Assembly: GCF_000013405.1 (NCBI RefSeq)
Contig: NC_007759.1
Coordinates: forward strand, 1,489,001 to 1,553,000
DNA: 64,000 nt
Source: Syntrophus aciditrophicus SB
Lineage (GTDB): Bacteria; Desulfobacterota; Syntrophia; Syntrophales; Syntrophaceae
Direction: 5' to 3'
Positions within the stretch are counted from its first letter, which is position 1; every line of letters begins with the position of its first letter. The notes under the pieces were generated by a model, which ran no database searches, had not been told where the DNA came from, and saw only the letters and a list, made by a program, of their open reading frames with translations. The position numbers were made by a program, and so were the translations under genes. Positions 8,586 through 46,405 of the stretch are shown piece by piece.

Positions 8586-10814
8586 ATGTATCGTTCGAGT
8601 CTGACCTGCTGCGGAAAGTTTGTTCTGTCCTGTCTTTTTTTCGTTTTTCTACCTTGTACCGCCCTGTCAGTGGATTATGTGATTCCGGGCAGCCCGCCTC
8701 CGGCCGGCTTTTCTAATTTGTTTGCCGGCGATACTCTCACCATCAACTCCGGTGGCGACTTTACAAATACAGGTACAAACTGGATATATAACAATGGCAT
8801 CATAACGAACAACGCTGGCGGGACCTTCACGAATAATAACGGCAATACACGCAACGACACGACTTTTATAAACAGCGGCACTTTCACAAACGCTAATGTC
8901 AGTCAGATTTATAACTATGGAACCTTTACGAACAATACCAGCGGCACCCTCACAAACGATAACAGCTATATTCATAACATGCTCGGTGCTGTGATTACAA
9001 ACGATGGCACGTTCACGAACCTGAATTCAAACACATCAACGATCCGGGAATTCAGAAACTACGGAACATTCACAAACAACGGCAGTTTTACAAACAGCAA
9101 CAGTAGAATTTATAACGCTGCCAGCGGTGTTATCACAAACAACGGCACTTTTATCAACGAAGCCGGCAGCACGATTGAGAATAACGGCGCCTTCGCAAAT
9201 CAACCGGGAGCGGTTCTGATCAATGACGGCACTTTCACTGCGAATACCCCGTTTACAAATTCCGGAACTCTCTCCGGAATCGGGACAATCAATGGTAACG
9301 TGACCAACGCCGGGACGCTGGCCCCCGGGAATTCCATCGGTCAAATGACAATAACCGGAAACTATACTCATAACGCGGGAGCGGCCTATCAGGTGGATGT
9401 CAATGCCGCGGGACAGTCAGACCGGCTTGTCGTTACAGGGACCGCTACCCTGAATGGAGGCGCCGTGGATGTGCTGGCGCAATCAGGCAGCTACCTGCAG
9501 AACACAAGCTATACGATCCTGACTGCAGGAGGCGGAGTGACAGGTGTTTTTGGCACGGTAACAAGCAATCTGGCATTTCTCACTCCCTCGTTGAGCTATG
9601 ACCCATCGAATGTGTATCTCCTGCTTACCCGGAACTCGACAAACTTTGTCGATGTCGCCGGCACACCCAACCAGCGGGCTGTCGCCTCTGCTTTTGATTC
9701 GATCTCTCCCGGCGCGACCGGGGAAATGGAAGCTGTCCTCAACAGCCTTACCAGCCTTTCCGCCGACGGGGCGAGATCCGCTTTCGACCAGATGGGAGGC
9801 AATGTCCACACGGCCCTGACGGGAGTGTCATTCTCCAGTTTCAACAGTTACATGGGCGTATTGACCGGCAGAATGGGAGGGGGTATTGCCGACAGGTCTT
9901 TCCTTGCGTCACTTCCGCAACCCATGTATGCGTCCCGCGGCGATGTTGCCACCGATGCCGGCGGCAATCTGAGCGGGGGCGATGAATGGGGTATCTGGGC
10001 AAGGGTATACGGAAATGTGGGAGACCGGGACGGAAATGATGTAACAACCGAATATGACTACAATATGGGAGGATTGGCAATCGGATTTGACAGAAAAATC
10101 ACGAATATTCTCCTTCTTGGTTTTTCAGTTGGGCTTTCCGGCGGAAAGCTGGACATGAATGACCTTACCGAGTCCTCAAAAATCAACAGCTGGCATGGTT
10201 CTCTTTATGGATCCTGTACAAAAGGCGCCTGGTATATGGATGGCATCCTGGCTTACGGTTATAACCGCTACGATACATCGCGAGACATTTCCTTCGGGGC
10301 TGTAGACAAGACAGCCGATGCCGAATACGATGGTCATATTGTCGGCGCCTATATGGAAGCAGGATACAAATTGAAGCTGAACACGATCAACATCACTCCC
10401 ATGGCGTCTTTTCAGGCGAGTCATCTTACCCGGGACGATTTTACGGAAGACAATGCCGGGGTGTTAAGCCTCGATGGGGACAGTGAAAACGCCGACTCAC
10501 TCCTGGGTACACTGGGTATAAAAGTGAACAGGGACTTTGTGGTGAATGCGGCCACCATTACCCCTGAAGTCCGGATAAAATGGCTCCACGAATTTTCCAA
10601 CGACGATTATATGCTCGATACGGCCTTTGCAGGAGCGCCTGCTGCGCCCTTCACCATCCGGGGGGATCATCCGGATAGAGATCGTGTCGCATTCGGCGTG
10701 GGGCTCAATGCCGATATGAAGAATAATTCGAGCCTCTTTCTTGCTTATGACGCCAATTTCTCAGGAGAGTATACTGAGCACGTGGGATCACTGGGATGGA
10801 GGTACAGGTGGTAA
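8586..10814 (+). CDS. Autotransporter (type Va) with Asn/Thr-rich passenger
   Basis: This 742-residue secreted protein starts at ATG 8586 behind AGAAGGAGG. A signal peptide covers about residues 1-28 (hydrophobic LSCLFFVFLPCTAL). Residues about 50-230 are short degenerate repeats built on GTFTNN/FTNSG, which predicts a beta-helix. Next comes an autotransporter-associated stretch (APGNSIGQMTITGNY, QSGSYLQNTSYTILTAGG). From about residue 468 (DEWGIWARVYG) the sequence alternates as an outer-membrane beta-barrel and ends in SLGWRYRW with a terminal aromatic residue, as BamA substrates do. No protease triad or adhesin domain is seen, so the passenger function is unknown; surface adhesion is only a guess. 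Confidence 0.9.
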   Translation: MYRSSLTCCGKFVLSCLFFVFLPCTALSVDYVIPGSPPPAGFSNLFAGDTLTINSGGDFTNTGTNWIYNNGIITNNAGGTFTNNNGNTRNDTTFINSGTFTNANVSQIYNYGTFTNNTSGTLTNDNSYIHNMLGAVITNDGTFTNLNSNTSTIREFRNYGTFTNNGSFTNSNSRIYNAASGVITNNGTFINEAGSTIENNGAFANQPGAVLINDGTFTANTPFTNSGTLSGIGTINGNVTNAGTLAPGNSIGQMTITGNYTHNAGAAYQVDVNAAGQSDRLVVTGTATLNGGAVDVLAQSGSYLQNTSYTILTAGGGVTGVFGTVTSNLAFLTPSLSYDPSNVYLLLTRNSTNFVDVAGTPNQRAVASAFDSISPGATGEMEAVLNSLTSLSADGARSAFDQMGGNVHTALTGVSFSSFNSYMGVLTGRMGGGIADRSFLASLPQPMYASRGDVATDAGGNLSGGDEWGIWARVYGNVGDRDGNDVTTEYDYNMGGLAIGFDRKITNILLLGFSVGLSGGKLDMNDLTESSKINSWHGSLYGSCTKGAWYMDGILAYGYNRYDTSRDISFGAVDKTADAEYDGHIVGAYMEAGYKLKLNTINITPMASFQASHLTRDDFTEDNAGVLSLDGDSENADSLLGTLGIKVNRDFVVNAATITPEVRIKWLHEFSNDDYMLDTAFAGAPAAPFTIRGDHPDRDRVAFGVGLNADMKNNSSLFLAYDANFSGEYTEHVGSLGWRYRW

Positions 10815-20579: not shown

Positions 20580-22469
20580 TTACAGCCAGTGATCTGATTT
20601 GTATTTCGCGTCATATTCCGCTTTCAGGGCGATCTGCGTTGCTTCGGCGATATATTCAGGCTCTTTAACCAGATCTTCAACGCGAATATCCACTCCAAAA
20701 ATTCCGACCATATCGTCATTGTCATCTGTAATCGGTTCTGAAACGGTAAAGCAGAGGGCGCCCGTCATTTTGGAAATGTAAAAATCAGTCACATGAAGTT
20801 TGCCCGTCTGCAGCGGCTTGATGAACCATTCCCGATCGGACTGATCCGTTCCCACGCCGTAGTTTTCATATTTGGCGCGATCAACGATATTCGTGATGTT
20901 TCTCGTGGTCTTCTTGCCGTTCATGTCCACCACGTATGCAAACTGGATCGAGGGGTATTCCTCGATAAACCGCTGCATTACCGGTTCCTGGAGTTCAGGT
21001 TGCATCGTTTTCATGGCCGGATCATCGATGATCTTGCGCAGTACGGCGATGGCTGCTTCCGCCGCTTTGAATTTGATCCTTTCCAGATCAGACATGAAGA
21101 GTTCCGGCATATACTTGCGAACCTTCGCCTCGAGTTCTTCCGTGGAAATGGTGGTGACTCGCCCCAATTCATACTCATCCGCGATCCATTTGTTGATCTT
21201 CGAAATGCCGGGGTGTCGCTTATCCACGGTACTGTCGCCGGACAGTCCGAAATGCGAGTTGATCCAGTAAGCGATGCCAGCTTTTCCGGACTTGTCGGTG
21301 ATCATGGGTACGATGGGACGCTTCAGAATCTTCGTCGTGTTGAAGATGTTGTAGATCTCTTCACTCTTGATCAGGCCGTCAGCGTGAACACCAGCCCGGG
21401 TAACATTGAAATCCGCGCCGACAAAGGGGTAATTGGACGGGATTTTGTATTCGATTTCATTTTTAAAGTAATTTGCGATATCAGTAATCACCGTCGTGTC
21501 GATCCCGTTTGTCTTTCCCATGAGCCCGATATATTCAATAATAAGCCCCTCAATAGGGGGATTGCCCGTCCGCTCGCCCAGCCCGAGCAGAGTGGAATTG
21601 GCGGCGCTGCAGCCGTAAAGCCATGCGGTAGTCGCGTTGATCAGGGCTTTATGAAAATCGTTGTGGCCATGCCATTCCAGAAGTCGGCCGGGCACATCGG
21701 CGTCATCAATGAACGCCCGCACCAGTTTGTCGACACCACGCGGCAGCGAAGCGCCCGGATAGGTCACACCGTATCCCATGGTATCGCAGAGCCTGATCTT
21801 GATATCCACACCGCTTTCCTCCCGAAGCTTCATCAGCTCGATGGCGAAGGGGATGCAGAATCCATAAATGTCCGCACGGGTGATATCTTCGAAGTGGCAG
21901 CGGGGAACGATGCCGGCATCCAGGATCGCCTTGACGATTCCCAGATATTCTTCAAGGGCCTGACTTCGGGTCATGTTCAATTTAAGGAAGATGTGATAGT
22001 CGGACACGGAGGTCAGAATCCCTGTTTCCTTCAGACCGGCTTCTTTCACCAGGGGGATGTCTTCCCGGGCAGCCCGGATCCAACCCGTAATTTCAGGATA
22101 TTGCAGGCCAAGGTCCTGGCACATTCTGACGGCTTCCTTATCCCGATTGCTGTAAAGAAAAAACTCCGTCTGCCGGATAATTCCATTGTATCCGCCAAGG
22201 CGGCTCATCATCTGGTAAAGGTCGACGATCTGCTGAGTCGTGTAAGGAGGTCTGGCCTGCTGCCCATCCCGAAATGTCGTATCGGTAATAAAAATTTCTT
22301 CAGCGGGCTGGATGGGAATAATCCGGTGATCAAAGTCGATCCGGCTGACTTCGTCATAGGGGAATACTTCTTTCTGAAGATTCGGTTCATCCACATCCCG
22401 CAATTCAAAGCGCCAGAATCGGGTATGCTCATGATTCAACACTCTTTTCTGGGGATTCCATTTGGCCAT
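20580..22469 (-). CDS. HMGL-family synthase, probable Re-citrate synthase, with C-terminal Cache-like domain
   Basis: This 629-residue protein of the isopropylmalate/homocitrate synthase (DRE-TIM) superfamily has TDTTFRDGQQ (62-71), HGHND (267-271), GLGERTGNPP (from 296) and AGVHADG (359-365), the metal and acyl-CoA binding sites. It resembles the Re-type citrate synthase characterised in Clostridium kluyveri and Syntrophus aciditrophicus, which condenses acetyl-CoA and oxaloacetate with inverted stereochemistry. From about 508 to 600 there is an extra Cache/PDC-sensor-like region (FAYVVDMNGKK, DREWFIKPLQTGK, VSEPITDDND, GIFGVDIRVEDL). ATG 22469 follows GGAG. No leucine or lysine pathway genes adjoin, which fits a role in citrate and glutamate synthesis. 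Confidence 0.8.
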   Translation of the reverse strand: MAKWNPQKRVLNHEHTRFWRFELRDVDEPNLQKEVFPYDEVSRIDFDHRIIPIQPAEEIFITDTTFRDGQQARPPYTTQQIVDLYQMMSRLGGYNGIIRQTEFFLYSNRDKEAVRMCQDLGLQYPEITGWIRAAREDIPLVKEAGLKETGILTSVSDYHIFLKLNMTRSQALEEYLGIVKAILDAGIVPRCHFEDITRADIYGFCIPFAIELMKLREESGVDIKIRLCDTMGYGVTYPGASLPRGVDKLVRAFIDDADVPGRLLEWHGHNDFHKALINATTAWLYGCSAANSTLLGLGERTGNPPIEGLIIEYIGLMGKTNGIDTTVITDIANYFKNEIEYKIPSNYPFVGADFNVTRAGVHADGLIKSEEIYNIFNTTKILKRPIVPMITDKSGKAGIAYWINSHFGLSGDSTVDKRHPGISKINKWIADEYELGRVTTISTEELEAKVRKYMPELFMSDLERIKFKAAEAAIAVLRKIIDDPAMKTMQPELQEPVMQRFIEEYPSIQFAYVVDMNGKKTTRNITNIVDRAKYENYGVGTDQSDREWFIKPLQTGKLHVTDFYISKMTGALCFTVSEPITDDNDDMVGIFGVDIRVEDLVKEPEYIAEATQIALKAEYDAKYKSDHWL

Positions 22470-22573
22470 GATCTCAAACTCCAACGCAAATAGTTTTCGC
22501 TAAAGAGACTATTTTCTATAGCAGTTACAGAAAATTACTATAATAAGCTGGCAATGTCTGTCAATAGGGAAGA

Positions 22574-24349
22574 CTAAACAATTTTAAGGGACAACTCCAT
22601 CAGTTGTTCAATGCTCACCCGCGAAGGGGCATCCGTCATCAGACAGGTGGCCTTCTGCGTTTTGGGAAAGGCGATGACATCGCGGATGGATTCCGCCCCG
22701 GTCATCATCATGACCAGTCGATCCAGACCGAAGGCAATCCCGCCATGGGGCGGCGTCCCGAATTCCAGGGCGTCCAGAAGGAAGCCGAACTTGCTGCGGA
22801 CTTCTTCATTCTCCAGGCCCAGAGCTTCGAAAATAAGGGACTGGATCTCTTTTCTGTGAATCCGGATGCTGCCGCCTCCCACCTCGGAACCATTGAGCAC
22901 GAGATCGTAGGCCCGCGCCCTGACCTTCCCCGGTTCTCCCGGAAGGTACTTCACATCATCGGGTACAGGAGATGTAAAAGGATGATGCGTGGAAACATAG
23001 CGCTTTTCCGTATCGCTGAATTCCATGAGTGGAAACTCGGTAATCCAGACGAAGGCAAATTGTTCCGGATCGATCAGATTGAGCTTTTTGGCCAGATGGA
23101 TACGGAGATTCCCCAGGGAGTCATTGACCACGGTCGGCGTATCCGCGACAAAAACGAGGACGTCGCCTTCGACCGCTTCCATTCTGCCATTGATCTGCCG
23201 GACTTCATCCGCGGTGAGGAATTTGAAGATAGGCGATGTCCATCCGTCGGCAAGTACACGAGCCCAGGCGAGGCCCCTGGCCCCGTAAATGGAGACGAAA
23301 TTCTGGAGGTCATCCAAATCCTTACGGGAGAGACGCTTCCCTTCGGGGATGCGGATCGCCTTGATCATGCCCCCGCCTGCCGCGGCTTCGCGGAAGACAG
23401 TAAGCCCCGAGTCGGCAAGAATATCGGTCAGATCTCTGAGTTCAAGGCCGAACCTGATATCCGGGTTGTCCTTTCCATATCGACCGATCGCTTCCGCATA
23501 GGAAAGACGGGGGAAGGGCGTCGAAAAAGTCCGGTTCAGGCATCGGGAAAAGAGATGGGTCATCAGGCCTTCCATAATTTCGATGATATCGTCCTCTGTG
23601 ATAAAGGACATTTCCACGTCGATCTGGGTAAATTCCGGCTGCCGGTCCGCGCGGAGGTCTTCGTCGCGAAAGCACTTGACGATCTGAAAATAGCGGTCGA
23701 AGCCGGAAACCATGAGCAACTGCTTGAATATCTGAGGAGATTGGGGAAGGGCGTAAAAGGTTCCCTTGTTGATGCGGCTGGGAACGAGATAATCGCGGGC
23801 GCCTTCCGGGGTGCTCTTCGTGAGAAAAGGCGTTTCGATTTCGATAAAACCGTTGCTTTGAAAAAACTGCCGCGTCTCTGCAGCAACGCGGTTCCGCAAC
23901 ATGATATTCCTCTGAATCTGTGGTCTGCGCAGATCCAGATAGCGATACTTCAGTCGGATGTTCTCCGAAATGTCGCTTTCGGATTCGAGACTGAAAGGCG
24001 GGGTCTGCGATTCATTGAGAATTTCCAGCTCCTCGACCATGACCTCGATGGCTCCTGTTTTCATGTCAGGATTAACCATCCCCTCCGGCCGATTGCGAAC
24101 CGCTCCCCGAACGGCCAGAACGTACTCGCTGCGGATTTTGTGGGCTTCCTGGTGAGCAACGGGACTGTATTCCGGATTGAAAACAATCTGAACAAGGCCT
24201 TCGCGGTCTCGGAAATCGACAAAAATGACACCGCCGTGATCCCTCCGACGGTGAACCCATCCCATGAGTATGACTTCCTTTCCGCTATCGCTGCTGTCTA
24301 ATTGCCCGCAGTAATGTGTTCTCTTCTTAATCGTGATGAAATCCGACAA
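22574..24349 (-). CDS. aspS: Aspartyl-tRNA synthetase, probably non-discriminating
   Basis: A 591-residue bacterial class IIb AspRS with the N-terminal OB domain, [18 protein letters not shown] (motif 2, from 227), a GAD insertion and [12 protein letters not shown] (motif 3). The start is TTG 24349 behind GAGAGG; the next in-frame ATG lies inside the OB fold. His38 in RRRDHGG is the residue found in AspRS enzymes that also charge tRNA-Asn; discriminating enzymes have Leu there. Asn-tRNA would then be made by GatCAB, which is not in this window. The start is 5 bp after the hisS stop. Confidence 0.95.
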
Positions 24350-24354
24350 CGTCT

Positions 24355-25620
24355 TTACCTCTCTTTTATAAGTTTCAGAATTTGTTCTTCAAGGTTGTCC
24401 AGGAAAAGAGTCTGCTGGGCTCCCGTTTTCATGTCCCGAAATTCGGCCTTTTTTTCTTCCAGTTCTCTGTCGCCCAGAATCAGGGTGTAGGCGCAGTTCA
24501 AGCGGTTTGCCCGCTTCATTTGACTTTTCAGACTCCTGGCCGAGAAATCCTGTTCGACATGAAGCCCTTTGATCCGCAACTGGTTGCATAACAGGAAGGC
24601 CAATCTCTGCGCGGACTCTCCAAGGGATGCAATGAAGAGATCCGGTTGAGGCAGAAAACGCGTGTTTTCTGCCTGCAGAAGAGTGATCAAACGTTCAAAA
24701 CCGACCGCAAAGCCGATGCCGGGAATATCAGGGCCTCCGAGTTCCTCTACAAGACGGTCATAGCGTCCGCCTCCGACCACGGCATTCTGAGACCCCAGAT
24801 GCTCCGTGGTGACCTCAAAAGTTGTCTTGGTGTAATAATCCAACCCCCGGACCATGCGGGCATTGATTTTAAAGGGGATATCCAGCTCCGTCAGAGTGGA
24901 GGCAACGGTCTCGAAATGTGTGTGGCAGTCGCTGCAGATAAAGTCGGAAAGCCGGGGGGCATCGGCGATGATCTCCTGGCATTCCTTTGCCTTGCAGTCA
25001 AAAACACGAAGCGGATTCGATCCGAGACGCCGTTTGCAGTCGTCGCAGAGACCGTCTTCCTTTCCGCTCAGAAATTCCAGGATGACTTTTCGGAAAGCGG
25101 GACGGCAGGAGGAGCATCCCAGAGAATTGAGTTCAAGGCTCACATTCTTCAGACCGACGGTGGAAAGAAAATGCATGAGCATGAGGATAACTTCCGCATC
25201 CGCCCGCGGGTCATCGAGGCCCAGCAGTTCCACATCGATCTGATGAAACTGCCGGAAACGGCCCCGCTGGGGTCTTTCCCGGCGAAACATGGGGCCGATG
25301 GTGAACAGCCTGCTGACCGGTTCGGCATTGTAGAGCGCATGTTCCAGATAAGCCCGGATCACAGAAGACGTCGCTTCCGGCCGAAGCGTCAGATACTCGT
25401 CTCCCCGGTCGAGAAAAGTGTACATTTCCTTTTCGACAATATCGGTGGATTCACCAATCCCTCTTTTGAAAAGATCCGTCTTTTCCAGAACGGGAAGACG
25501 GATTTCCTTGAATCCGAAGCGGGAAAAAATTTCCCGTGCGGCGTCTTCCACAAAACGCCATTTTCCCGTTTCCTCGGGAAGAATGTCCTTGAAACCCTTA
25601 ACGGCCGTAATGACTTCCAT
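24355..25620 (-). CDS. hisS: Histidyl-tRNA synthetase
   Basis: This 421-residue class IIa enzyme attaches histidine to tRNA-His. Signatures are [11 protein letters not shown] at the N-terminus, [17 protein letters not shown] (motif 2), the HisA motif [12 protein letters not shown], and [13 protein letters not shown] followed by [10 protein letters not shown] (motif 3). A four-cysteine insertion (CSSC, CDDC, CKAKEC, CSDC), likely zinc-binding, sits in the middle. ATG 25620 gives the usual N-terminus; a GTG five codons earlier is possible. It is followed directly by aspS, a hisS-aspS order common in bacteria. Confidence 0.95.
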
Positions 25621-25740
25621 TTTGATTAACCACACCCAGTCTCGATTTTAACGACCCTGCTGCTTAACATAGAACCAGGTGAATGACAATAAAATTATGT
25701 TCTTCCATGATTTAGGCGCCGGAACGTAAAGACAGGAAAA

Positions 25741-43958: not shown

Positions 43959-44657
43959 ATGGCAAACCAGAGACATACGAGCAGACATTATGAGAAGGAG
44001 CTTCAGGAGCTCAAGGAGGGGTTGCTTTATCTGGGGGGGCTGACGGAGAGGGCCATCGAAAATGCCCTGCAGGCCCTGCTGGGCAGGGATTCTGAACTGG
44101 CGCGGAAGGTTATTGCCGACGACAACGCCATCGATCAGCTTGATTCGGAAAATGAAGAGCGATGCATCCGCATCCTGGCATTGCGGCAGCCGGCGGCGAG
44201 AGATTTGCGCTTTATCGCGACGGCAATCAAGATCAACGGCCATCTGGAACGGATCGGAGACATGGCGGTCAACATCGCCGAGAAGGTTCTGCTGCTGAAT
44301 GAAGAACCTCAGTTGAAACCCTATATCGATATTCCCCGCATGGGGGAGATCGTTCAGAGGATGATCCGTCAAAGTATGGATGCCCTGGTTAATGAAAATG
44401 TCGAACTGGCTGATCAGGTTCGTAAAGATGATGAAATTGTTGATGAACTGACAGAACAGGTTTTTCGGGAACTTCTCACCTTCATGATAGAAAATCCCCG
44501 GACAATTAAAGTGGCGCTGCTGATCATGCAGATTTCCAAGAACCTGGAACGGATAGCCGACCATGCGGAAGGAATTGCCGATATGGTGATTTACATGGTG
44601 ACGGGGAAAAGCGTGCGTCACGATTCCTCCACGGAACCCAAGGGGCGGATGGCTTGA
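43959..44657 (+). CDS. phoU: PhoU, phosphate signalling regulator
   Basis: This 232-residue protein has two PhoU helical repeats, each with an E-x3-D metal motif (for example IKINGHLERIGDMAVNIAE and MQISKNLERIADHAEGIAD). It links Pst status to PhoR and keeps the Pho regulon off when phosphate is ample. GGGGG precedes the ATG. The stop overlaps the phoR start as TTGA. Confidence 0.95.
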   Translation: MANQRHTSRHYEKELQELKEGLLYLGGLTERAIENALQALLGRDSELARKVIADDNAIDQLDSENEERCIRILALRQPAARDLRFIATAIKINGHLERIGDMAVNIAEKVLLLNEEPQLKPYIDIPRMGEIVQRMIRQSMDALVNENVELADQVRKDDEIVDELTEQVFRELLTFMIENPRTIKVALLIMQISKNLERIADHAEGIADMVIYMVTGKSVRHDSSTEPKGRMA

Positions 44658-46405
44658 AACCAAAACTATTTCTCCGGATCCTGTTCAGCTATTTCGCGGT
44701 AATCCTGCTGGTAGCGGTGATTGTGGGCTTCTTTTTCACCGAACAGGTTCGCCGGAACGAGACATGGAAAATCGAGGAAAGCCTTCTGAATTATGCGCGT
44801 CTGACGGCGTTGCTGCCACTCCCTGAGATGGCAGATCAGATTGGCCATCTGGAAAAAGTGTCCGAAGCCAGAGTGACCGTGATCGATGCGGGCGGTCATG
44901 TCCTTGCCGACTCACAGGTCGACGCGCCCCGGATGGAAGACCACATGAACCGTCCCGAGGTTCAGGAAGCCAGGATCAAGGGTTCCGGCAAAGCCATCCG
45001 GCAAAGTCATACCCTCCAGGTAGATATGCTTTATGTGGCGCTGGCGCTTCGAGACGGAGAGAGCATCCGGGGTTATGTCCGCATGGCCCGTTCCCTGCTG
45101 GAAGTGGAACATGCGGTGGATCGTATGTATGGTTCCCTCTACCGGGCAATCGGTTTTGCCCTTGTTCCCGCGCTTCTGCTTGCCTTTCTCTATACCTGGA
45201 AAATTTCCCGGCCTGTTTTGGAAATGAGGGATTATACCCGGGCCATCCGCCGGGGAGAACTTCCCGGAACCCTCCTCGTGGATTCCGCCGATGAACTGGG
45301 TCAAGTAGCTGAAGACATCAATTATCTGGTCACGGAGTATCGGGAAAAAATCCGGCTGGCCCATGAAGAAAAAGGCAAACTTGAATCTGCCCTGGCCAGC
45401 ATGGTGGAAGGAGTCGTGATCCTGGATTCCCGGAATCGAATCGAGTCCTGCAATCAGGCTATTGAGGCCATTCTCGAACGACCGGAGACGGAAATCCGGG
45501 AGAAAACACTTCTGGAAGCCTTTCTCAACGCGGATCTGCAGAATGCGCTGGATCGTTTCCGCATGGAGCGGAAGCCCGTTCTACAGGAAATCAGGCTGGG
45601 AAGAAAAGATCCTCGCGTCGTGGATGTCAGTATTTCCGCCATCAAGGATCTTCCGGACGGAGTGGAAAAAACGATGCTCGTCTTTCACGATGTGACGCGG
45701 CTGAAAAAGCTGGAGCAGATAAGGACCGATTTTGTGGCAAACGTAACTCATGAAATCAAAACCCCTCTGACCGCGATCATCGGCTTTCTTCAGACTCTGC
45801 TGGACGGCGCACTGGATGATCGGGAAACGGCAAGGAAGTTCCTGCAGACCATCGCAACCAACGCGGAACGGTTAAGCCGGCTTGTGGACGATCTGCTGAC
45901 GCTTTCCAGTATTGAACTCAACGAAACGAGTCTCCATCTTGAACCTCTTTCTGTAGACGTCCTGATCCGCTCCATACTGCCCATGGTAAATGCCGACGCG
46001 AAGGCAAAAAATATTCTCCTTAATGTTGATCTTCCGGAAGCTTTCCTGAATATCCTCGCGGATCGGGACAGGGCCGCGCAGATCCTGATGAATGTGCTTC
46101 ACAATGCCGTAAAATTCACGCCAGCCGGGGGAATCGTCACTGTTTCAGGCAGTGAGGAGGAAAAGGGGAATTTCGTGATCATTCAGGTTGTGGATACTGG
46201 TATAGGCATTCCTCCCCGGGAGATTCCCCGACTCGGTGAACGATTTTATCGGGTGGACAAGGCGCGATCCCGGGAACTGGGTGGGACCGGTCTGGGTCTG
46301 TCCATCGTGAAGCACCTCATGGCGGCGCATGGCGGAAAAATGCGGATTGAAAGCACTCCCGGCAAGGGAACCATCGTTTCACTTTTCTTTTCCAGGGCGG
46401 GATAA
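44654..46405 (+). CDS. phoR: PhoR-type membrane histidine kinase
   Basis: This 583-residue kinase has helix 1 (about 6-27), a periplasmic sensor of about 135 residues, helix 2 (about 163-181), HAMP, PAS (SMVEGVVILDSRNRIE), HisKA with His366 in VANVTHEIKTPLTAI, and HATPase (NVLHNAVKFTPAGG, DTGIGIP, GGTGLGLSIVKH). The start is TTG in a TTGA overlap with the phoU stop, so translation is coupled. The cognate PhoB regulator is not in the window. Unlike E. coli PhoR, it has a substantial periplasmic domain. Confidence 0.9.
   Translation: MKPKLFLRILFSYFAVILLVAVIVGFFFTEQVRRNETWKIEESLLNYARLTALLPLPEMADQIGHLEKVSEARVTVIDAGGHVLADSQVDAPRMEDHMNRPEVQEARIKGSGKAIRQSHTLQVDMLYVALALRDGESIRGYVRMARSLLEVEHAVDRMYGSLYRAIGFALVPALLLAFLYTWKISRPVLEMRDYTRAIRRGELPGTLLVDSADELGQVAEDINYLVTEYREKIRLAHEEKGKLESALASMVEGVVILDSRNRIESCNQAIEAILERPETEIREKTLLEAFLNADLQNALDRFRMERKPVLQEIRLGRKDPRVVDVSISAIKDLPDGVEKTMLVFHDVTRLKKLEQIRTDFVANVTHEIKTPLTAIIGFLQTLLDGALDDRETARKFLQTIATNAERLSRLVDDLLTLSSIELNETSLHLEPLSVDVLIRSILPMVNADAKAKNILLNVDLPEAFLNILADRDRAAQILMNVLHNAVKFTPAGGIVTVSGSEEEKGNFVIIQVVDTGIGIPPREIPRLGERFYRVDKARSRELGGTGLGLSIVKHLMAAHGGKMRIESTPGKGTIVSLFFSRAG

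Follow-up and report, generated by a model that had tools for sequence, protein, structure and literature searches.

Cache domains are regarded as the principal extracellular sensors of prokaryotes and as the input parts of signalling proteins (PMC4822843), and the question raised by this locus is what such a domain might do at the end of a putative citrate synthase. The window analysed is a stretch of 64,000 nucleotides of Syntrophus aciditrophicus SB (NCBI RefSeq assembly GCF_000013405.1, contig NC_007759.1, positions 1,489,001 to 1,553,000 of the forward strand), and all positions are counted from its first letter. The coding frame lies on the reverse strand at 20583–22469; it starts with ATG at 22469 and is closed by a stop codon at 20582–20580 (Table 1). 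This ATG was preferred to a TTG at 22484 because a GGAG is found 9 nt upstream of it. The sequence-only reading had taken the last ~120 residues for the Cache region. Its C-terminal position held, but its size had to be revised: alignment of long against short forms of the protein set the boundary at residue 459, giving a domain of about 145 residues (459–605) that is followed by a tail of 24 residues. In most short forms the match ends near residue 458 of the Syntrophus protein, and the short protein has few residues after it. Outside the order, the terminal ~24 residues (606–629) are absent from most homologues; in near relatives the match mostly extends to residue 621–629, while matches in the wider phylum mostly reach only 602–616, with a few at 618–624.

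Table 1. Features of the Re-citrate synthase gene, its neighbours in the window and downstream frames at related loci
Feature	Position or locus	Strand	Evidence
Re-citrate synthase with C-terminal Cache domain, 629 aa + stop	20580..22469	-	ORF and Pfam
GGAG, likely ribosome-binding site, 9 nt before ATG	22479..22482	-	sequence reading
HMGL-like (DRE-TIM) catalytic domain, residues 60-333	21471..22292	-	Pfam PF00682, 102.4 bits, cut-off 29
Remaining synthase core, residues 334-458	21096..21470	-	short homologues stop about here
Cytosolic Cache/PDC domain with leading helices, residues 459-605 (predicted)	20655..21095	-	PF22673; AF2 model; PDB matches
C-terminal tail, residues 606-629	20583..20654	-	kept in near relatives
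R546, pocket arginine	20832..20834	-	column of the Arg changed in KinD R131A entries and of PctA R126
W548, pocket tryptophan	20826..20828	-	PctA W128 column
D594, pocket aspartate	20688..20690	-	PctA D173 column
aspS (aspartate-tRNA ligase), directly upstream	22574..24349	-	NCBIfam 873.9 bits, cut-off 443
hisS (histidine-tRNA ligase), upstream of aspS	24355..25635	-	NCBIfam 502.8 bits, cut-off 286.75
Iso_dh (isocitrate/isopropylmalate dehydrogenase), downstream	L091		Pfam
Aconitase piece, downstream	L113		Pfam
Malate/lactate dehydrogenase, downstream	L114, L133		Pfam

The HMGL-like domain by which a Re-citrate synthase is recognised was found well above its cut-off (PF00682, 102.4 bits against 29). 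The motifs DTTFRDGQQ and HGH, which hold metal and catalytic residues of the superfamily, were invariant or almost so in 16 and 72 aligned sequences. None of the 24 NCBIfam models listed reached its cut-off, a point of use to annotators of this Re-citrate synthase; the best match was the generic profile LEU1_arch with 132.1 bits against a cut-off of 484.75. That match and the common superfamily could be taken to indicate an isopropylmalate, homocitrate or citramalate synthase. However, the listed models of all three were missed by more than 300 bits each, and the same genome encodes a separate LeuA (805 bits, cut-off 532) and a separate CimA (746 bits, cut-off 450) elsewhere. The near exclusion with Si-citrate synthase described below and the reported assay of the purified enzyme also speak against such an activity, which we regard as extremely improbable. 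No grouping with the isopropylmalate synthases, the alternative named by the sequence-only reading, was seen.

The Re-citrate synthase of S. aciditrophicus, which we take to be SYN_02536 and presumably a homotetramer, was reportedly purified by Kim et al. in 2013. The purified enzyme is said to have made citrate with Re stereochemistry, to have been active without added effector (according to the abstract) and to have had a tagged subunit mass of 72,892 Da; the mass computed for the 629-residue protein without tag is 71,766 Da. The protein encoded here is probably the same Re-citrate synthase already purified from this organism, and its enzyme half is thus known. The earlier assignment of the catalytic half to the Re-citrate synthase type agrees with the missed NCBIfam models, with the separate LeuA and CimA and with a published report in which the Re-citrate synthases of S. 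aciditrophicus and C. kluyveri are named as known and isolated (PMC12016533). The same report gives the Heliomicrobium Re-citrate synthase as only ~28% identical to the enzyme of either species, indicating that Re-citrate synthases fall into far branches.

Citrate_synt (PF00285) was not found in the genome of S. aciditrophicus, i.e. no Si-citrate synthase was detected there. Among 60 related genomes, this one included, a Re-citrate synthase match above 160 bits was present in 43 (some of them partial) and PF00285 in 18. The two enzymes nearly exclude each other: 4 genomes showed both, 39 only the Re type, 14 only the Si type and 3 neither (Fisher p = 9e-8, kinship uncorrected). Since each of six families (f2, f10, f13, f15, f17 and f19) holds both a Re-only and a Si-only genome, exchange of the two types seems to have been repeated. 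On these sequence data, acetyl-CoA and oxaloacetate would be joined to citrate by this enzyme in a genome that lacks the usual Si type. The three genomes with neither match (G008, G022 and G024) might reflect an assembly gap or another route. A related genome, Smithella M82_1, was described as being without a detected citrate synthase gene (PMC5606693).

Residues 521–600 of the C-terminal region matched the Pfam model MCP-like_PDC_1 (PF22673) with 45.7 bits (cut-off 27, E = 1e-11), and residues 490–600 matched dCache_1 below the cut-off (E = 1.1e-7). When 72 aligned tails were scanned singly, each of the 72 matched the one Cache model and the other at E<=0.01; a chance match can thus be dismissed. 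In a search of the tail profile against solved structures by sequence only, Tlp3 (1.3e-11), KinD (1.5e-9), PctA (1.5e-6) and YkuI (0.0023) were found. Structure prediction gave the same result. The AlphaFold2 model of the tail, built with the 72 tails, had a mean pLDDT of 86.8 and a pTM of 0.80 and was Cache-like; its best Foldseek match was the KinD sensor (E = 3.3e-8), and the best 50 matches listed were, by title, receptor or kinase sensor or ligand-binding domains and YkuI. VIA-align gave a Z of 17.0 for KinD (rmsd 5.7 over 153 residues), 16.3 for WalK and 14.9 for CitA. The full-length model reached a mean pLDDT of 86.5 and a pTM of 0.72, with residues 1–19 and 604–614 uncertain. Helices were predicted at 461–481 and 491–504 and strands at 508–515, 572–581 and 587–596, i.e. 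a PAS-like sheet after a long helix.

LeuA_dimer gave no match in the C-terminal region at E<=1 with Pfam. A regulatory domain of the LeuA type, which we take to be PF08502, was thus rejected for the tail, the region being occupied by the Cache; an ordinary LeuA or homocitrate synthase fold, which had been considered as the alternative, was not seen. A membrane helix was not indicated anywhere in the 629-residue protein, the highest mean hydropathy over 19 residues being 1.08 overall and 0.90 in the tail, in agreement with the cytoplasmic position suggested earlier. The highest C-terminal value in 111 long-form homologues was 1.65; this stretch overlaps the predicted strand 572–581, and a membrane helix is therefore unlikely in the long forms as well. 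Taken together, profiles and models suggest that the C-terminal 145 residues form a single Cache/PDC domain working in the cytosol, as the sequence-only reading had proposed. Two usual, not defining, traits of Cache domains are lacking: the domain does not lie outside the cytoplasm between two membrane helices, and a synthase is attached in place of a signalling output domain. In the 2016 Cache census the outputs are signalling domains, with the exception of SMP_2 (PMC4822843). No description of a Cache domain on Re-citrate synthase was found among the matches listed in the full-text literature searched, most subscription journals lying outside its coverage. The fusion seems to be undescribed in the searchable literature; a domain database would show it.

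The amino-acid-binding columns of the dCache_1 domain of PctA are Y121, R126, W128, Y129, Y144 and D173 (PMC9796306). In the 111 long loci, arginine at R546 was kept in 107, tryptophan at W548 in all 111, phenylalanine at F549 in 108 (tyrosine in 2) and aspartate at D594 in all 111; the Y564 column held tyrosine in 91 and phenylalanine in 16. The Y121 column was mostly E or T, with tyrosine in only 1 of 60 representatives. A complete dCache_1AA amino-acid sensor motif was therefore rejected, the R, W, aromatic (F), Y and D columns being kept and the Y121 column not. Carboxylate and amino contacts would be kept except for Y121, which is the weakest point of an amino-acid reading. In the 60 representatives, the five kept columns had a mean entropy of 0.36 bits against 1.69 for the domain, a value reached by 7 in 100,000 random draws (p = 7e-5); such pocket residues are, however, common in Cache domains and may partly keep the fold. 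The KinD residue that is changed from arginine to alanine in the R131A entries sits in the R546 column of the alignment rows. We take it to be the same residue as the one elsewhere numbered R95A. The KinD mutant so numbered holds acetate (PMC3831638), and wild-type KinD binds pyruvate in its sensor domain (PMC8534201). Because the pocket columns are kept and the ligands at the arginine column of KinD are pyruvate and acetate, the ligand to be expected is a small carboxylate, which may or may not bear an amino group, and glutamate or 2-oxoglutarate would be the first guesses because of the pathway. The allosteric ligand site that had been suggested for the Cache domain is plausible.

Alternatively, the Cache might be a structural or oligomerisation part which has lost ligand binding; short forms without it are common, and the protein would be a homotetramer. 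PAS and Cache domains are also reported to serve as dimerisation domains (PMC8694187). Pocket columns among the least variable of the domain would, however, be needless in a purely structural part, although some of them are core residues as well, and we consider this explanation unlikely while giving it real weight.

Conservation of the fusion was investigated in 163 loci: 83 came from genome searches, and 80 were the best of 589 obtained when the catalytic half was run against one genome per species. In the phylum of the window, Re-citrate synthase was detected at E<=1e-50 in 197 of 395 sampled genomes. Among the 163 loci (best 80 of 589 included), 111 were long, i.e. synthase with Cache, 47 were short by rule and 5 were partial (L080, L083, L084, L085 and L108) and left out of both groups. 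Two loci counted as short (L077 and L111) end at contig ends, leaving 45 uncut short loci. The loci are not independent, as some genomes occur twice (e.g. L082 and L086) and 73 long loci come from the phylum of the window by choice of search. By record titles, and with the doubt that attaches to metagenome bins, long forms occur in at least nine phyla, including Thermodesulfobacteriota, Nitrospirota, Omnitrophota, Lentisphaerota, Spirochaetota, Fibrobacterota, Elusimicrobiota, Margulisiibacteriota and Auribacterota. Short forms were found in Bacillota, Planctomycetota, Gemmatimonadota, Bacteroidota and others; since part of the family lacks the Cache (the 45 uncut short loci), the domain is dispensable for enzyme activity. 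A far branch of short Re-citrate synthase-like proteins, ~46–56% identical to the Syntrophus protein, was also observed (L081, L086–L088, L094, L097–L099, L104, L112 and L122) and occurs in Gemmatimonadota, Planctomycetota, KSB1, Bacteroidota and others.

A tree of the catalytic half was built from 85 representatives below 80% identity, 60 long and 25 short (L077 was removed, and L111 was not among the rows). Presence or absence of the Cache changed five times on this tree, three of the changes being forced by well-supported branches, against 21.7 changes with shuffled labels. Rooting with LeuA and CimA was tried and rejected, the outgroup branches amounting to 2 and 10 changes per column, and with this root useless gain and loss look alike on the catalytic tree. 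Two Re-citrate synthases without Cache (L075 and L102) stand among the long forms; these are likely losses and would be good natural controls. In a quick, unrooted tree of Cache domains, the 25 Re-citrate synthase tails chosen from the 111 formed one clade (SH-aLRT 96). The simplest reading would be one origin of the fusion followed by losses, the single origin resting on the Cache tree alone; the fusion is old, as judged from the sequences compared. Pairwise identities of the two halves correlated at 0.71 among the 60 representatives, the catalytic half averaging 65% and the Cache 46%, so that in the whole family the Cache varies more than the synthase. Within the genus the Cache dN was 0.027–0.051 against 0.047–0.079 for the catalytic half, and it was the lower value in 6 of 6 pairs, synonymous sites being near saturation.

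Relatives of the Cache domain were found on both membrane-bound and soluble proteins. In 21 related genomes, ten of the eleven weaker Cache matches had two helix-like stretches above 1.8 hydropathy; the eleventh (L183) was a soluble EAL-type protein, its EAL part being read from its likeness to L202. The tail profile, run on 158 genomes of the phylum, gave 79 matches of at least 176 bits, read as Re-citrate synthase copies from their place and ORF length, and 10 weaker ones. The best-scoring relatives in the phylum were L194 and L196–L198, MCP proteins with a C-terminal Cache (112–119 bits) and no hydropathy mean above 1.34. L195 (116 bits) was rejected as a fifth soluble MCP, since it ends at a contig end and the piece holds a Cache but no MCP domain. 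L199 (94 bits) showed a C-terminal Cache on an MCP with a membrane part, and L200 (53 bits) was a membrane receptor, which outscored the soluble EAL protein L202 (40 bits); two more membrane receptors appeared with L202 at 40–41 bits.

Of 299 Bacillota genomes, 28 had a match at E<=1e-16 to profile A4, in which the soluble MCP tails were included. The top match (L220, 102.8 bits) was a membrane receptor with a double Cache. In the next five (L221–L225) the Cache lies inside a CheW domain, CheW being matched in two stretches; these are soluble proteins with reading frames of 278–402 aa. The remaining matches, as judged by place and hydropathy, were either MCP-like proteins bearing the Cache at their C-terminus or membrane receptors of the ordinary kind, with Pfam used on L226 only. 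On the Cache tree, the Re-citrate synthase tails grouped with the soluble MCP tails together with L199 and with the EAL tails (support 88), and CheW, other MCP C-terminal tails and extracytoplasmic domains fell outside. Because of this grouping, the Cache of Re-citrate synthase most likely stems from a lineage of cytosolic Caches, the wider picture being mixed. The soluble MCP-like proteins L194, L196–L198 and L217 are possibly sensors of the same internal metabolite as the Re-citrate synthase tail.

The occurrence of domain relatives on soluble MCP, CheW and EAL proteins could also mean that the Cache links the enzyme to chemotaxis or c-di-GMP machinery, by docking or signalling, without tuning catalysis. 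Gene neighbourhood, which is weak evidence, did not favour such a link: none of 20 neighbouring frames in 11 long-form loci of other phyla matched a chemotaxis or c-di-GMP family, and the neighbours in the window are aspS, hisS and a helicase. We regard a link of this kind as improbable. One of the 20 frames (at L110) encodes a PAS histidine kinase, and 7 had no Pfam match at 1e-6. The next downstream frame of at least 90 aa was of the citric-acid-cycle type in 4 of the 11 loci; the Iso_dh, aconitase and malate/lactate dehydrogenase neighbours (Table 1) fit the role of a citrate synthase. Other neighbours in these loci were mixed (thiolase, peptidase, glycosyltransferase, lactate racemase and others). 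Among the long loci in which 500 nt or more of upstream sequence was available, 74 of 107 had aspS upstream on the same strand, against none of the uncut short loci (43 by rule with room; L077 has aspS but ends at a contig end). A same-strand hisS match was seen in 8 loci, the sequence of most others not reaching that far, and an opposite-strand match to the Rep/UvrD-like helicase of the window in 25 of 163. The order hisS-aspS-Re-citrate synthase gives no direct clue to the ligand. Elsewhere in the window, the frame at 44654–46405 encodes a histidine kinase in which HAMP and PAS domains accompany a region weakly resembling a single Cache (PF16736, 27.3 bits, cut-off 27), and that at 8586–10814 encodes an autotransporter of 742 aa whose beta domain is typical (PF03797, 247.5 bits).

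The sensor tail is genuine; it is ancient, is under constraint and sits on an enzyme that is already known. Starting from the observed order of domains, the predicted fold, the absence of membrane helices, the conservation and broad distribution, the single tail clade (in the sampled tree) and the cytosolic relatives, we think it fairly probable that the Cache binds a small intracellular carboxylate and tunes Re-citrate synthase, with binding, ligand class and effect on activity as the inferred parts. The cleft would most likely take up an amino or 2-oxo acid that stands late in the pathway, namely glutamate or 2-oxoglutarate and less likely pyruvate or aspartate. Binding would be passed through the long helix 461–481 to the synthase core, and the outcome would be feedback control at the place where LeuA-type enzymes carry an unrelated regulatory domain. 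A bolder reading, on which we are evenly divided, is that one cytosolic Cache branch for a single class of internal metabolite has been plugged into soluble chemoreceptors, EAL proteins, perhaps CheW and an enzyme of central metabolism. The Cache of Re-citrate synthase would then be an allosteric valve controlling how carbon enters glutamate synthesis, and the first Cache with a metabolic enzyme as its direct output. If this is true, the Cache fold also regulates metabolism directly, beyond sensing of the outside, and a purifiable enzyme would be at hand on which ligand and effect could be measured.

Compared with known systems, the protein would share its enzyme family with the Re-citrate synthase of C. 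kluyveri, reportedly ~49% identical to it. The Clostridia loci among the 163 (L147, L150, L157, L165 and others) are short and lack the Cache; Clostridia and Paenibacillus loci of this set are 54–59% identical to the Syntrophus protein and fall among its relatives. The regulatory domain of isopropylmalate synthases is likewise C-terminal on a DRE-TIM synthase, whereas here its place is taken by an unrelated Cache. The sensor domain of KinD from Bacillus subtilis, the best solved fold match, has the arginine pocket column and the surrounding stretch in common with the tail, but it is a double PDC on a membrane histidine kinase, unlike the single cytosolic Cache of Re-citrate synthase. Closer in setting are the soluble MCP-like receptors (L194, L196, L197, L198 and L217), which bear a C-terminal Cache like that of the synthase and show no membrane helix by hydropathy; their output, in contrast, is an MCP signalling domain. 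YkuI of B. subtilis, an EAL protein, also carries its Cache at the C-terminus, and its family YkuI_C is described, together with Diacid_rec, as mainly intracellular (PMC4822843). YkuI_C was matched at E<=0.01 by 23 of 72 Re-citrate synthase tails; the output of YkuI, however, is a c-di-GMP domain, and its Cache lies further off in sequence (E = 0.0023).
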